Assembly (NCBI GenBank): GCA_027018875.1
Contig: JALUYA010000014.1
Location: 1 to 64,000, forward strand
Direction: 5' to 3'
DNA: 64,000 bases
Origin: Gammaproteobacteria bacterium
Lineage (GTDB): Bacteria > Pseudomonadota > Gammaproteobacteria > JAKDMP01
Below, in pieces: positions 13,532-19,921 of the stretch. The translations under genes and the position numbers were made by a program. Each line of letters opens with the position of its first letter. The stretch's first letter is position 1. Under the pieces are notes generated by a model that was not told the DNA's origin, ran no database searches, and was given only the letters and a program-made list of their open reading frames with translations.

Positions 13532-15436
13532 ATGATCGACGCGAAACGCTACCCGCTGCTTAGCAGCATCGACCGGCCTGCACTCTTGCGTGAACTACCC
13601 CAGGAGCGCCTGGGTGAGGTTGCACGTGAACTGCGCGGCTACCTGATTGAAACCGTGAGCGGTACCGGAGGCCATTTCGGCGCCGGATTGGGTGCCCTGG
13701 AACTGACCATTGCCCTGCACTACGTGTATCACACTCCCGAGGATCAACTGCTCTGGGATGTTGGGCACCAGGCTTACCCGCATAAAGTATTGACCGGCCG
13801 TGCCGACCGGCTTGGCACCATACGTAAATTTGGTGGCTTGGCACCTTTCCCACACCGTGCCGAAAGTGAATACGACACCTTCGGGGTAGGCCATGCAGGC
13901 ACCGCTACCGGTGCCGCTATCGGGATGGCGCTCGCTTTCCGGGCGCAGCACGATTGCCGCAAGGTAGTGGCCGTCGTCGGCGATGGGGCAATGACCTGTG
14001 GCCAATCCTTCGAGGCACTCAATCACGGCGGTGCCTCGCGCCCCGATATGTTGCTGGTCCTCAATGACAACGCCATGTCGATTTCAGAAAATGTCGGCGG
14101 CCTGGTCAACTATTTCTCGCGGATACTCTCGGGGCGCCTTTACACCACCTTGCGTGAGGGGGGCAAGCGAGTACTGCAACACATGCCCCCCGCTTGGGAA
14201 CTCGCCCGCCGGGGTGAGGCGGCACTCAAGGGTATTGTGCTACCCGGCACCTTGTTCGAGGAACTCGGCTGGAATTACGTCGGCCCGATCGACGGGCATG
14301 ACCTTCCCACGCTGGTGTATACACTGCGCAATTTACGTGAACTGAAAGGTCCACAATTTCTGCATGTCGTGACCCGCAAGGGCAAGGGCTATGCCCCCGC
14401 AGAGGCCGATCCGACCAAGTGGCACGGCCCTTCCCCTTTCGACCCGGAATCAGGGAAATTCAAAAAAAAGGCGTCGCTGCCTACGTATTCACAGATCTTC
14501 GGCCGCTGGGCCTGTGACATGGCCGAACGCGATCCACGCTTCTTTGCCATCACCCCGGCCATGCGTGAGGGTTCCGGACTGGTCGAGTACCACCGGCGCT
14601 TCCCCGAACGTTATGCCGACGTCGGTATCGCCGAACAGCATTCGGTCACGCTGGGAGCCGGGCTGGCCGTTGAAGGCATGAAGCCGGTCGTAGCCATCTA
14701 CTCCACCTTTCTCCAACGCGCCTACGATCAGCTGATTCACGACGTCGCAATCCAGAATTTGCCGGTATTGTTCGCAATCGATCGCGCGGGCATTGTCGGT
14801 GGCGATGGGGCCACCCACCAAGGTGCCTTCGATCTGAGTTACCTGCGCTGCATACCCAATATAGTAGTGATGGCCCCCGCGGACGAAAATGAATGCCGGC
14901 AGATGCTCTACACCGGCTACACACTGGATCAACCCGCGGCGGTTCGTTATCCCCGCGGCAGCGGTCCTGGTATCGAGCCACAGGTCGAAATGCAGGCGCT
15001 ACCCATTGGCAAGGCCGAGATTCGGCGTCGGGGGAAAACCCTGGCTATTCTGGCCTTCGGGGCGATGGTACCCGTCGCGGCGGAGATAGCCGAAAAACTC
15101 GATGCAACCTTGGTCAACATGAGGTTCATCAAACCCCTCGACCAGGAAACAATCCGGAAAATGGCGACCGATCATGACCTGCTGGTCACCCTCGAGGAAA
15201 ACGTAATTGCCGGCGGCGCGGGTAGCGCGGTAGCCGAGGTGCTCAATGCACTCACCCTGCTGCGTCCCATCCTGCATATCGGGCTTCCCGACGTTTTCTG
15301 CGAGCATGGAAGCCGGGAAGACATGCTGGCCTGTCTAGGCCTCGATGCCGCCGGGATCGAGAAACGAATCACCGACTGGCGTAACAGGCTGAAAACGATC
15401 CAACCCGCCCCCCTGGCATCCACTTCTCGAAGTTAA
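13532..15436 (+). CDS. dxs: 1-deoxy-D-xylulose-5-phosphate synthase
   Basis: A thiamine-diphosphate enzyme that joins pyruvate and glyceraldehyde 3-phosphate in the first step of the MEP isoprenoid pathway. Its 634 aa match the family length. Seen are VGHQAYPHK, the ThDP motif [15 protein letters not shown]...NDN, the transketolase-like second domain with [11 protein letters not shown], and a C-terminal domain ending near [11 protein letters not shown]. The start is an ATG with a weak GAGG about ten bases upstream. The next MEP enzyme, dxr, is encoded in the large cluster about 25 kb away. folE2 follows 11 bases downstream on the same strand. Confidence 0.97.
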
Positions 15437-15447
15437 GCCGAGCCCTC

Positions 15448-16248
15448 GTGGATTGGGAAGCCCAGGTGCCAATCCCGGCCGGCACCATAGAGGATGTTCA
15501 AAGCCATACCGACCATCGTCGTCAGGCAATCGATGCCGTCGGCATCAAGGGCTTGCGCCATCCCCTGAGTATCGCCACCGAACGCGGCTCCCAACAAACG
15601 GTAGCCACCATCTCCCTGGCGGTTCCCCTACCGGCCGAGCGCCGCGGCACCCATATGTCACGTTTCATTGATCTGCTCATGGAGCAACATGAACCATTAA
15701 CCGCCTCGCGCCTGCCGATTTTCCTCGCTACCGTAGCCCGGCGCCTCGACGCGGCGGGGGCCGAAGCGGAATTTCGCTTTCCGCTGTTTCTGCGCAAGCG
15801 CGCTCCGATTTCCGGTGTCAGCAGCTATCTTGATTATGAGATTCGTCTCGGCGGAAGTATCAAGGATGGGCTGGCCAGCACCTATACCGAAATCCAGGTG
15901 CCGGTAACCAGCCTCTGTCCTTGCTCCAAGGAGATCTCCCGCTACGGAGCCCACAATCAACGCTCGCATATCCGGGTGAAGATCGAGCCGGGAGATGCCC
16001 TCGGCCTGGAAGCCCTCATCGGACTGGTGGAAGACAAGGCTTCCGCTCCACTCTATGGGTTGCTCAAACGAACCGATGAAAAATTTATTACCGAGCAGGC
16101 CTACGACAATCCACGTTTTGTCGAGGATACGGTGCGTGAAATCGCCTTGGTGCTGCGCCAAGACCAGCACATACGCCGGTATAGCGTCGAGGCGGAAAAC
16201 TTCGAGTCCATCCACAACCACTCGGCCTGGGCCGTAATCGCCGGATAA
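15448..16248 (+). CDS. folE2: GTP cyclohydrolase FolE2 (type IB)
   Basis: A 266-aa enzyme that converts GTP to 7,8-dihydroneopterin triphosphate for folate and queuosine-type pathways. It is FolE2, not FolE1, by RGTHMSRFIDLL, the metal-site Cys in SLCPCSKEIS, the repeat GAHNQRSHI, and the C-terminal ESIHNHSAWA. FolE2 enzymes can use metals other than zinc, so they often serve when zinc is scarce. Translation starts at a GTG with no visible Shine-Dalgarno, only 11 bases after dxs, which suggests re-initiation. No folE1 is in the window, so I cannot say whether this is the only copy. It converges on the kinase gene with 43 bases between stop codons. Confidence 0.93.
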   Translation: MDWEAQVPIPAGTIEDVQSHTDHRRQAIDAVGIKGLRHPLSIATERGSQQTVATISLAVPLPAERRGTHMSRFIDLLMEQHEPLTASRLPIFLATVARRLDAAGAEAEFRFPLFLRKRAPISGVSSYLDYEIRLGGSIKDGLASTYTEIQVPVTSLCPCSKEISRYGAHNQRSHIRVKIEPGDALGLEALIGLVEDKASAPLYGLLKRTDEKFITEQAYDNPRFVEDTVREIALVLRQDQHIRRYSVEAENFESIHNHSAWAVIAG

Positions 16249-16291: not shown

Positions 16292-17593
16292 CTACTCGGC
16301 CTCGATCCCCCGGTACGCTACCGCCAACCGGCGCAGTAAGGCTCTCATGAAAACCTTATAAAAAGCCAACTGGCATTCGGTCGAGGCGCTTTCAAGTTGC
16401 TTCGCTTCAAGGCTCATGGCCAACACCGGTGCGACCGCTTTTACCGTCGTCACCCGGGGGCGACCGGCAAGCAATGCCAGTTCCCCGAAAGTCTCGCCAC
16501 GGCGGAGAAGATCGACCTGCCGTCCTTCGCGATACAGGATAACTTCCCCGGAAATAATCACGAAAAAGACCCGTTTTCCCGAGCCTGCGGCAATCAATTC
16601 GTCGCCGGCGGCATAATTTCGCCAAGTACTGTGGCTGATTGCCTCCCAGACCTCAGCATAGCCAAAGTCTTTGAAAAACGGCAAATGTCGCGCAATATCG
16701 AATCGATCCTGAAGATCGAGTTGTCCCGCCCGTTCCTCGAACTCGGCCAGTACCCGCGCCAGTTGGGCCGCCATTGCCAGGCCGTTCGGAAATCGCCGCG
16801 CGGGGTCTTTTTCCATCGCCCGTTCGATCACCCGCTCGAGCGCCGGAAGGATACTGGCCCGCAACTTGCCTAGCGGCTGCGGGGTCGCGTAAATAATCTG
16901 ATGCACCAGATGAGAAAGATTATCCCCATAAAAGGGACGTTTCCCACTGATCAGCTCATAGCCGACCACACCCAGGGAGTAGATATCGGAAAGTGCGGTG
17001 GCGGTTCCATCTTTCACCTGTTCCGGCGCCATATAACTGGGTGATCCGACCAGCCCGGTAATACTTTGAGTCCCCGTTAAACGATCATGAATAGCCACGC
17101 CAAAGTCAATGATCTTGGGATTTCCATCTGCCATGAGAAGAATGTTGCTCGGCTTGATATCCCGATGCACCACGCCCTTGCTGTGCGCATAATCCAAGCC
17201 CTTCGCGCAAGCAAACAGAATTTCCACCACCCGCCGTTGTGGCAACAGGTTGGCCAACTGGGTATGCGCCGAGAGCGGTTCCGCTCCCCGTAGATATTCG
17301 GTGACGATATAGGCATCGTCACCGCTTTGTCCCGCCTCTAAAACCGGCACCAGGTTCGGGTGATTGAGTTCCCCGGCCAGACGGGCCTCATTGGTAAATA
17401 GTTTGCGCCGGGTTTCAGCCCGTTCCGGACGCACCTCGGTGCCGTGATAAAGCTTCAGCGCAACATCGGATCCCCGTTGCGGGTCATGAGCAAGATACAC
17501 GACACTGGTACTGCCGCGGCCCAGCTCACGGGTCATCACGTATCGACCTGTATGTCGTGGGAATCGAGGCTTATCCGTCTCCTTGTCGTTCAC
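16292..17593 (-). CDS. Ser/Thr protein kinase fused to a C-terminal cyclic-nucleotide-binding domain
   Basis: A 433-aa soluble Hanks-type kinase. The glycine loop GRGSTSVVYLA is near residues 25-35, with the ATP-binding Lys at about 47 in VALKLY. The catalytic loop HRDIKPSN is at about 143, DFG at about 163-165 and MAPEQ at about 188-192, so all key residues are present. From about residue 310 a cNMP-binding domain follows, with GETFGELALLAGRPRVTTV giving the conserved Glu and Arg of the phosphate-binding cassette. No transmembrane segment is seen. I chose the GTG at 17593 because it overlaps the pgpA stop as GTGA and has GGAGGG five bases upstream. An ATG at 17635 is in frame but would overlap pgpA by 46 bases. 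Substrate and ligand are unknown. Confidence 0.88.
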   Translation of the reverse strand: MNDKETDKPRFPRHTGRYVMTRELGRGSTSVVYLAHDPQRGSDVALKLYHGTEVRPERAETRRKLFTNEARLAGELNHPNLVPVLEAGQSGDDAYIVTEYLRGAEPLSAHTQLANLLPQRRVVEILFACAKGLDYAHSKGVVHRDIKPSNILLMADGNPKIIDFGVAIHDRLTGTQSITGLVGSPSYMAPEQVKDGTATALSDIYSLGVVGYELISGKRPFYGDNLSHLVHQIIYATPQPLGKLRASILPALERVIERAMEKDPARRFPNGLAMAAQLARVLAEFEERAGQLDLQDRFDIARHLPFFKDFGYAEVWEAISHSTWRNYAAGDELIAAGSGKRVFFVIISGEVILYREGRQVDLLRRGETFGELALLAGRPRVTTVKAVAPVLAMSLEAKQLESASTECQLAFYKVFMRALLRRLAVAYRGIEAE

Positions 17594-18108
17594 ACCAGCC
17601 CTCCCGCTGCCATCCAGCCTGAGTACATTCCCCATAGGATAACGCCGGCAAAAACCCCCGCAACGATATCGTCGGCCATGATACCCAATCCACCCCCCAG
17701 GCGTCGATCAATCCAGCAAATCGGCCACGGCTTGAGAATATCCAGCACTCGAAACAGCACAAACGCCAATACCAACCAGAACCATTCGCTGGGAACCATC
17801 GCGGCGGCAACGAGTTGTCCGGCTACCTCATCGAGGTTAATCCCCGGCGGATCGTGTGCCTCCAGACGACGCGACGCATGGCCGGTAATCGCAATACCTG
17901 CCAGGATAACGATCCCGGTCACCAACCCATAGACGGGCAGGTTGGTAAATTTCAAGGCCCAGGCCAGAAAAATACCCAGAATCGCACCCAGGGTTCCGGG
18001 CGCGTAGGGAGAAAGGCCGGTCCCAAAGCCGAAGGCGATCCAGCACCAGGGATCGCGCCCGAGCGCTTTGGCATTGATACCGGGTGAAGGGTACGGGCGT
18101 CGGCTCAT
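17590..18108 (-). CDS. pgpA: Phosphatidylglycerophosphatase A
   Basis: A 172-aa inner-membrane enzyme that dephosphorylates phosphatidylglycerol phosphate. The family motif GFGTGLSPYAPGTLGAILG is at the N-terminus, and a metal-binding MADDIVAG is near the C-terminus, with about four hydrophobic segments between. The ATG at 18108 overlaps the thiL stop as ATGA. Earlier in-frame residues lie inside thiL and are not family-like. Together with cdsA in the large cluster it covers parts of phosphatidylglycerol synthesis. The kinase gene is coupled to its 3' end. Confidence 0.92.
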   Translation of the reverse strand: MSRRPYPSPGINAKALGRDPWCWIAFGFGTGLSPYAPGTLGAILGIFLAWALKFTNLPVYGLVTGIVILAGIAITGHASRRLEAHDPPGINLDEVAGQLVAAAMVPSEWFWLVLAFVLFRVLDILKPWPICWIDRRLGGGLGIMADDIVAGVFAGVILWGMYSGWMAAGGLV

Positions 18109-19022
18109 GAAAAATGCCGGTAGCCGAACCGCCCGGGCATCAGTGCTTGAGAACCCAGCCGGATACCACGCTCGGCACTCACCCGACCTATGCGGGTCAA
18201 CGGGCAACCAAGCGCCACTTCCGGCTGCAACGCCGAAATCTCGGCGGCGGAAGCGGCCAACAACAGTTCGTAATCATCGCTCGGTCCAAGCCCATCGTCC
18301 AGGCTCGCCCCAGGCGCCAGCGGCAGACTCCGGGAATCGATCTCGGCACCCAGCCCCCCCGAGGCTTCGAGCAATTTGGCCAAGTCTCCCACCAACCCGT
18401 CGGACAGGTCAATGGCCGCATGGACGTAGGGAACCAAGGCTTCGCCCGCCCGTAGCCGTGGCTCCGGCAACGCATAGGGACGTACCATGGGATCGGTGAC
18501 GCTCTCGCCGGCACGGAATGCCCGCAAACCGGCGGCGCCCCCCCCGACAACCCCGGTGACATAAAGATCATCGCCCACGCATGCACCGTCCCGCGTCAGG
18601 GCGGCACCCGGGGGCAGAAAACCGGCTACGGTAATGGTAATCGACAGCGGACCCCGGGCTAAATTCCCGCCGACCAGGGCAACCCCATGCGCTCGGGCCA
18701 GACGGGCATAACCGCTTGCGAAGAGCCGGATCCATTCCCGATCCACTTCGGAAAGAGTCAGCGCCAGCAGGGCCCAGGATGGTTCCGCCCCCATGGCCGC
18801 CAGGTCACTCAGGTTAACCGCTAAAGCGCGATGTCCGATCGCCGCAGCCGGCAGATTCATGGGAAAATGCACCCCGGCGACCAAGCTGTCGGTACTCAAG
18901 GCCAGATCGCGGCCGCAGGGTGGACGCACAACCGCGGCATCGTCCCCCACTCCGCGTAGAACATCCTCGCGGGTCACACCCAGGCCGGTGAAAAAATCGC
19001 GGATCAGGTCAAACTCATCCAC
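18105..19022 (-). CDS. thiL: Thiamine-monophosphate kinase
   Basis: A 305-aa AIR-synthase-like kinase that phosphorylates thiamine phosphate to thiamine diphosphate, the cofactor of Dxs and SucA encoded nearby. Visible motifs are GVGDDAAVV, the metal-binding STDSLVAGVHFP, NLSDLAAMGAEP, and the C-terminal DLSDGLVGDLAKLLEASG followed by GPSDDYELL. The start overlaps the nusB 3' end by eight bases. The ribH-nusB-thiL-pgpA order is a common proteobacterial arrangement. Confidence 0.95.
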   Translation of the reverse strand: MDEFDLIRDFFTGLGVTREDVLRGVGDDAAVVRPPCGRDLALSTDSLVAGVHFPMNLPAAAIGHRALAVNLSDLAAMGAEPSWALLALTLSEVDREWIRLFASGYARLARAHGVALVGGNLARGPLSITITVAGFLPPGAALTRDGACVGDDLYVTGVVGGGAAGLRAFRAGESVTDPMVRPYALPEPRLRAGEALVPYVHAAIDLSDGLVGDLAKLLEASGGLGAEIDSRSLPLAPGASLDDGLGPSDDYELLLAASAAEISALQPEVALGCPLTRIGRVSAERGIRLGSQALMPGRFGYRHFS

Positions 19023-19485
19023 AATTCCCGTCCCGGGGCCGGTTCTTCTCCTGCGGCCTCAGCCGGACGGCGAGACGATCCAGCACCCCATTGACATAGC
19101 GATGTCCCTCGGCGGAGCCGTACAGCCGGGCCAGCTCCACCGCTTCATCGATAATGACAGGCATCGCAATCTCACGGCGTAGCTCGAACTCGGCTGTAGC
19201 CAATAACAGAACGGCACGCTCAACGGGGTCCACCTCCGCCAAGGGCCGATCCAGTACCGAGGCAATAAGCGCTTCAAACCTTTCCACCTGGGTGAGGCAC
19301 GGCAGCAGCAGTTCATGAAAATACGCCGTGTCAATGCCGGGAGGAGCACGATCCTCCAGGAATTCGGCCACCAGCGATTGAGGTTCACCTCCGGCGCTCA
19401 GCCACTGATACAGTGCCTGCACCAATAACCGGCGCGCCCCACGCCGGCCCCGAACGACCTCAGGGGTGGAATTTGGCGAGGACAT
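19015..19485 (-). CDS. nusB: Transcription antitermination protein NusB
   Basis: A 156-aa all-helical protein that, with NusE/S10, binds boxA RNA and supports antitermination on rRNA operons. The N-terminus RRGARRLLVQALYQWL and the C-terminal helix PVIIDEAVELARLYGSAEGHRYVNGVLD are typical. I used the ATG at 19485, which overlaps the ribH 3' end by 26 bases. The upstream frame to 19548 encodes a basic stretch unlike NusB. No clear Shine-Dalgarno is seen, so coupling to ribH is likely. Confidence 0.93.
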   Translation of the reverse strand: MSSPNSTPEVVRGRRGARRLLVQALYQWLSAGGEPQSLVAEFLEDRAPPGIDTAYFHELLLPCLTQVERFEALIASVLDRPLAEVDPVERAVLLLATAEFELRREIAMPVIIDEAVELARLYGSAEGHRYVNGVLDRLAVRLRPQEKNRPRDGNCG

Positions 19486-19921
19486 CGGCGGTATATAGCG
19501 CCGCTTGCGCCGCTTGCATACCCTTGTTGCCGGCCTTGCCGCCCGCACGATTAAGCGCTTGCTCCAGCGTATCGGTCGTCAGTATCCCCAAGCCGACAGG
19601 CGTCGAGGTCTCGCTCTGGATTCGCCCCAGGGCATCGATGGCGGTTCGGGCGATATGCTCAAAATGTGGGGTCTCCCCACGGATCACCGCCCCGATAGCC
19701 ACTACCGCCCGATAACGGCCACTGCGCGCGGCCGCGGTCACTACCGGCGGCAGCTCCCAGGTACCGGGGACATCGATCCGTTGAATCCGCTCGGCGGCAA
19801 TACCCTGGGCCAGCAAAGCCTCCTCGGCCCCGGCGGTCAACCGTTCGGTCACCAGGGAATTAAAGCGGGCCGAGACGATGAGATACTCCCCCTGGAGGGT
19901 GGGATCGGTTCTTGCGTTCAT
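19460..19921 (-). CDS. ribH: 6,7-dimethyl-8-ribityllumazine synthase
   Basis: A 153-aa enzyme of the penultimate riboflavin step, which usually assembles as a 60-subunit shell or a pentamer. The motifs VSARFNSLVTERL, VPGTWELPPV and GAVIRGETPHFEH (with the catalytic His), and the C-terminal NKGMQAAQAAL, are all present. GGGAG lies five bases before the ATG. No ribD, ribE or ribBA precedes it here, unlike many relatives; a transporter gene takes that place. Confidence 0.96.
   Translation of the reverse strand: MNARTDPTLQGEYLIVSARFNSLVTERLTAGAEEALLAQGIAAERIQRIDVPGTWELPPVVTAAARSGRYRAVVAIGAVIRGETPHFEHIARTAIDALGRIQSETSTPVGLGILTTDTLEQALNRAGGKAGNKGMQAAQAALYTADVLAKFHP

Follow-up and report, generated by a model that had tools for sequence, protein, structure and literature searches.

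A protein kinase and a cyclic-nucleotide-binding (CNB) domain were found in a single chain encoded on the minus strand of the window, that is, the whole 64,000-nucleotide stretch of DNA analysed here. We consider it rather probable that the product is a Hanks-type Ser/Thr kinase of the cytosol and that a small molecule, bound by the CNB domain at its C-terminus, sets its activity. This reading was favoured by two domains scoring above their cut-offs, by invariant catalytic residues, by the kept Glu and Arg of the phosphate-binding cassette, by matches to the CNB domains of PKG and PKA, by the fit to the canonical cassette motif and by the lack of a transmembrane segment. The cyclases of the other member genomes, the single Hanks kinase and single PP2C phosphatase of the window genome, and the overlap with pgpA also spoke for it. 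It was weakened by the lack of a class I or III cyclase match in the window genome (G000) and its sister G001, by the loss of the equivalent of PKA Gly169 and by an unreliable model of the CNB domain. What is new is that the kinase is both the sole Hanks kinase and the sole canonical cassette of a genome with no detectable class I or III cyclase.

Domain architecture and conserved residues

The features of the gene and its product are as follows, with counts referring to a family alignment of 121 full-length proteins.

16292-17593, minus strand: Ser/Thr kinase-CNB fusion protein, 433 aa, GTG start (ORF reading, Pfam, family alignment)
17599-17605, minus strand: GGGAGGG, a Shine-Dalgarno-like stretch inside pgpA, 6-12 nt 5' of the kinase GTG (sequence reading)
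16790-17542, minus strand: Hanks-type protein kinase domain, residues 18-268 (Pfam Pkinase, E 1.5e-49; AlphaFold2)
17453-17455, minus strand: ATP-anchoring Lys47, invariant (121/121)
17159-17167, minus strand: HRD catalytic loop motif, residues 143-145, invariant (121/121)
17099-17107, minus strand: DFG, residues 163-165; Asp invariant, third position Gly in 67/121 and Ser in 54/121
17021-17029, minus strand: APE, residues 189-191; Pro and Glu invariant
16388-16621, minus strand: CNB domain, residues 325-402 (Pfam cNMP_binding, E 2.3e-13; PDB matches to PKG and PKA)
16454-16489, minus strand: phosphate-binding cassette FGELALLAGRPR, residues 369-380, with Glu371 (120/121) and Arg380 (107/121)

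The open reading frame comprises 433 codons and a stop, read from the GTG at 17593. This GTG overlaps the pgpA stop codon TGA (17590-17592; GTGTGA), leaving no gap between the genes, and the GTGA overlap described in the sequence-only reading is therefore real. An in-frame ATG lies farther upstream at 17635, within pgpA; the ribosome-binding context of the GTG is better, and this codon is the putative exact start. A consensus scan for promoters and terminators near the gene gave one promoter-like site, the same as in shuffled sequences. No transmembrane segment was seen in the protein, the maximum 19-residue Kyte-Doolittle mean being 1.32, so the label "soluble" holds. Reading frame, Pfam matches and hydropathy thus bore out the earlier description of a soluble kinase fused to a CNB domain. 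Every motif it had named was also located, namely K47, E69, HRD (143-145), DFG (163-165), APE (189-191), FGE (369-371) and PR (379-380).

Both the Pkinase and the cNMP_binding matches exceeded the curated Pfam cut-offs. In an AlphaFold2 model, built from a limited alignment, the pLDDT of the kinase domain was mostly above 90, the activation loop excepted. The features that define a Hanks Ser/Thr kinase (Gly-rich loop, VAxK Lys, αC Glu, HRD, DFG and APE) were all present, and were invariant or nearly so across the family. K47, E69, H143, R144, D145, K147, N150, D163, P190, E191 and R267 never varied. Judged from the alignment, the conservation of these kinase residues and of the cassette in the 121 relatives is far beyond chance, and the window kinase domain should be catalytically competent. 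The window protein has the usual DFG, while 54 family members have DFS; Ser as the third residue of this motif is rarely seen in active kinases.

The best PDB matches of the CNB domain were the CNB domains of PKG and of the PKA regulatory subunit (best 2.4e-24), with the cassette aligned without gaps. The cassette with its following residue, FGELALLAGRPRV (residues 369-381), fits the canonical motif FGE[LIV]AL..[PV]R[ANQV] given by Kannan et al. 2007 (PMC2246266). G349 was invariant across the family, and G366, G370 and E371 were each kept in 120 of the 121 proteins. Ranked by column entropy among 120 CNB positions, E371 came 4th and R380 11th. The losses of the cassette Arg were clustered, with about 10 of the 14 in a branch whose genes adjoin mpl; in the subclade of the window protein this Arg was in register in 13 of the 14 proteins. 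The cassette Glu and Arg that had been singled out earlier are therefore intact in the window and conserved in the family at large.

One allosteric feature was missing. The position equivalent to PKA Gly169, in the β2-β3 loop, is Lys340 in the window protein, Asp in 80/121 and Gly in only 6/121. According to the same paper, Gly169 couples the cassette Arg to allostery in PKA and is co-conserved with that Arg; two other bacterial CNB families there have the Arg without Gly169, and alternative mechanisms were suggested for them (PMC2246266). The AlphaFold2 model of the CNB domain was poor, with pLDDT mostly below 50 on the limited alignment, and is unreliable there, including the domain contacts.

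The surroundings of the cassette set the window protein and its G001 relative apart. These two alone read TFGELALL.GR.RVT, and the relatives mostly read CFGE(M/I)GYL..(K/R)R(T/S)A, so that the MGY or IGY of the relatives is LAL in the pair. In the column of residue 368 (16490-16492), directly before FGE, 101 of 121 proteins have Cys (GDCFGE), and the pair has Thr. A redox or ligand role for this Cys is possible.

The family and its gene neighbourhoods

The sequence-only reading had proposed looking for the same architecture elsewhere, and the search disclosed a large gammaproteobacterial family. Full-length two-domain copies with 30-61% identity were present in a dozen other genomes when 56 relatives were searched. 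When 369 Gammaproteobacteria were scanned with a family profile (A1) built from 16 full-length copies, at least 72 genomes of 36 families proved to have a full-length copy, this count being a lower bound because few candidates were scored per genome. In a phylum-wide draw of 299 genomes, the full-length matches were confined to the same class, and in other classes only the kinase domain gave matches. From these profile searches within the phylum, the fusion looks like a gammaproteobacterial family. No match to the full fusion occurred among 928 plasmid records, and viral contigs matched only in the kinase domain. A single-sequence scan of genome contigs also gave matches limited to the kinase domain, and is therefore uninformative on the fusion. 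A role in anti-phage defence was rejected, since the PADLOC matches (PD-T4-6, mad6) hit the kinase domain alone and no defence genes were found in the neighbourhood.

The window gene is the last of a housekeeping cluster and faces two genes on the plus strand.

17590-18108, minus strand: pgpA, phosphatidylglycerophosphatase A, the next upstream gene, start chosen at MSRR (Pfam PgpA, E 1.1e-39)
18105-19022, minus strand: thiL, thiamine-monophosphate kinase, upstream in the conserved cluster (conserved order)
19015-19485, minus strand: nusB, start approximate (conserved cluster)
19460-19921, minus strand: ribH (conserved cluster)
15448-16248, plus strand: folE2-like gene, convergent with the kinase gene and conserved there in the subclade, start approximate
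13532-15436, plus strand: dxs, the second conserved gene on the folE2 side

Gene context was taken from 110 family loci. In twelve of them, the window included, the kinase gene closes the ribH-nusB-thiL-(pgpA) cluster, with folE2 and dxs opposite it in most cases; these loci come from 8 families, and the complete order ribH-nusB-thiL-pgpA-kinase was seen in 11 of the 12 genomes. Thirteen proteins from thiL-pgpA loci and one paralogue formed one tree group (14 rows, SH-aLRT 98), to which the window protein belongs by both locus position and tree grouping. The kinase starts in this subclade ranged from 4 nt inside to about 130 nt past the upstream gene; at locus L180 the coordinates place the start no more than about 75 nt past it.

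Elsewhere in the family the contexts were different. At about 20 loci the gene immediately upstream is mpl, for murein peptide ligase, and many of these also have ubiX downstream (mpl-kinase-ubiX). The mpl loci are L119, L121, L122, L124, L182, L183, L187, L201, L202 and L211, and further L212, L214, L221, L222, L235, L244, L247, L248, L250 and L251. Many members of one mpl-linked sub-branch lack the cassette Arg. The remaining loci have other contexts, some adjoining an SCO1-like gene. Several member genomes carry two to four kinase-CNB copies, some in tandem. Tandem or near-tandem pairs were noted at L117, L166, L169, L170, L173, L174, L175, L177 and L181, several beside an SCO1-like gene. 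The ribH-nusB-thiL-pgpA context pointed out earlier is thus genuine for one subclade (13 of 14 proteins, 12 genomes) and does not extend to most copies.

Ligand, gating and alternative explanations

No second Hanks kinase was found in the window genome, and no other protein there has a canonical cassette. Five other CNB-fold proteins were read, by eye, as FNR/CRP-type regulators without an FGE...R cassette. A single PP2C phosphatase gene was found, at about 17302-18057 of contig C5 of G000 (L304:6303-7058, minus strand), between yicC and rph and overlapping rph. In G018, G041 and G062 a PP2C gene adjoins a long kinase gene, so such a partner kinase may have been lost in the window lineage. If so, the CNB kinase would be the only one left opposing the PP2C.

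Neither class III (PF00211) nor class I (PF01295) cyclases gave a match in G000 or in G001, assemblies that are 95% and 96% complete, whereas all 16 other member genomes tested carry at least one class I or III cyclase. The lone CYTH protein of G000 resembles NE1496 (2FBL/3TYP), which we take to be a tripolyphosphatase. It begins MGIEIERKFLV; on this start and the NE1496-like match a class IV cyclase was rejected, and the protein is most likely a triphosphatase. There were 16 GGDEF matches in G000. Because no class I or III cyclase was detected in either genome, a cAMP or cGMP signal is not to be assumed in the window lineage. The expected messenger could be missing, a different class of enzyme could produce it, or the pocket could respond to another signal. 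The analogy to cyclic-nucleotide-gated kinases drawn by the sequence-only reading therefore survives as a statement on architecture, and not on the cAMP or cGMP signal. Across the family in general, cAMP is the most plausible ligand, since a cyclase is encoded in nearly every member genome tested.

For the gated kinase, we envisage the following course. Since the Glu for the ribose 2'-OH and the Arg for the cyclic phosphate are kept, the pocket would most likely bind a cyclic mononucleotide or a close analogue. Binding might rearrange the linker helix and those of the CNB domain, and the kinase could thereby be set free or favoured, much as in PKG. The gating would in principle be PKG-like with the domain order reversed. 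The position at the end of the operon, after ribH-nusB-thiL-pgpA, probably gives steady housekeeping co-expression and names no substrate. The one PP2C phosphatase of the genome would be a plausible counter-enzyme.

In the window lineage the CNB domain might bind some other metabolite in place of cAMP or cGMP, for instance a nucleoside or a cyclic dinucleotide such as c-di-GMP; this is possible in our view, though somewhat doubtful. It would account for the missing cyclases of G000 and G001 against their presence in the other 16 genomes, with the sole CYTH protein being NE1496-like, and it would suit the many GGDEF matches and the peculiar residues around the cassette of the pair. The c-di-GMP option draws on the general precedent of CRP-like proteins that bind it. 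A precedent for such a change exists in trypanosome PKA, which binds nucleosides (PMC6440977); however, the Arg that neutralises the cyclic phosphate is lost there and kept here. The cyclase search, moreover, covered classes I and III, and the assembly may lack about 5% of the genome. The narrower proposal, that the canonical-looking pocket of a sole Hanks kinase shifted off cAMP and cGMP after cyclase loss, as a bacterial counterpart of the trypanosome PKA switch, is speculative and in our judgement doubtful.

The CNB domain might also need no ligand at all and serve as a docking or dimerisation module, the kinase being regulated by autophosphorylation and substrate contacts alone. Part of the mpl-linked branch, which accounts for about 10 of the 14 Arg losses, retains the fusion without that residue; this would agree with such a role, as would the absent Gly169 equivalent. 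A cassette Glu that ranks within the top four CNB positions for conservation, and an Arg ranking 11th and in register in almost the whole window subclade, argue against a ligand-free module, which we regard as quite improbable. The functional coupling to PgpA put forward in the sequence-only reading, by which the kinase would tune the making of phospholipids or of the envelope in response to a nucleotide signal, appears highly improbable. In its favour, 12 genomes from 8 families place the kinase gene beside pgpA or its operon and in the same direction, the start lying between 4 nt inside and about 130 nt past the upstream gene, and these form one group of the tree; the gene adjoining the second branch, mpl, serves peptidoglycan recycling. 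Against this, no PgpA gene was matched in the complete genome G018 (L114), a member of the subclade in which the kinase directly follows thiL; the loss of pgpA with the kinase kept leaves the lipid link unsupported. In G062, G087, G045 and G015 pgpA is unlinked to the kinase, and more than 100 other copies lie in unrelated contexts. As the last gene of a ubiquitous housekeeping operon, the kinase could owe its linkage to position alone. The conserved position after thiL-pgpA probably means co-expression, and is weak evidence for a shared pathway.

Relation to known systems and significance

The ligand-gated kinase that we favour was compared with several known groups. PKG, including the apicomplexan structures 5EZR and 4RZ7, likewise joins kinase and CNB in one chain with the same type of cassette, and was the best PDB match to both domains. 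However, PKG has at least two CNB domains N-terminal to the kinase, and the window protein has one at the C-terminus, which places it outside PKG. PKG also typically has Thr directly after the cassette Arg (PMC2246266, Table 1), where the window protein has Val. The cassette of the PKA regulatory subunit RIα is near-identical (FGELALIYGTPRAATV versus FGELALLAGRPRVTTV), but RIα forms a subunit of its own, carries two CNB domains together with an inhibitory segment, and has the Gly169 that the window protein lacks. Trypanosome PKA also keeps a kinase under CNB domains whose ligand is no longer cAMP (PMC6440977); it is a eukaryotic two-subunit enzyme without the cassette Arg that the window protein retains. 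On the kinase side, the PknB/StkP/PrkC-type Hanks kinases share the domain (best NCBIfam match PknB_PASTA, 233 bits; PDB PknB, 3.5e-41). The 233 bits come from the kinase part alone and fall far below the NF033483 cut-off of 450 bits, so the protein is not a PASTA-type Stk1/PknB. In place of the transmembrane helix and PASTA repeats of those kinases, it has a cytosolic CNB sensor.

The closest published category was the catch-all CNB family no. 23, "Other_bacterial", of Kannan et al. 2007, whose partners include response regulators, rhodaneses, "kinases" and others. Because kinases are listed there, the fusion is known in kind. The kinases are unspecified, and the accessible part of the paper describes no such family, context, cassette Cys or ligand question (PMC2246266). 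A review of bacterial Hanks kinases (PMC6213207) mentions neither cyclic nucleotides nor cAMP, and two surveys (PMC1262709, PMC2877116) have no CNB fusion in their main text. We found no experimental description of the kinase-CNB family in the open-licence literature, and the family is apparently unstudied.

The presence of the kinase-CNB fusion in at least 36 gammaproteobacterial families would give these bacteria a direct route from a second messenger to Ser/Thr phosphorylation. Detailed knowledge of how CNB domains control protein kinases comes solely from the eukaryotic PKA and PKG. The window organism, in which one such kinase and one PP2C phosphatase but no class I or III cyclase were detected, is a clean system for orphan CNB sensing.
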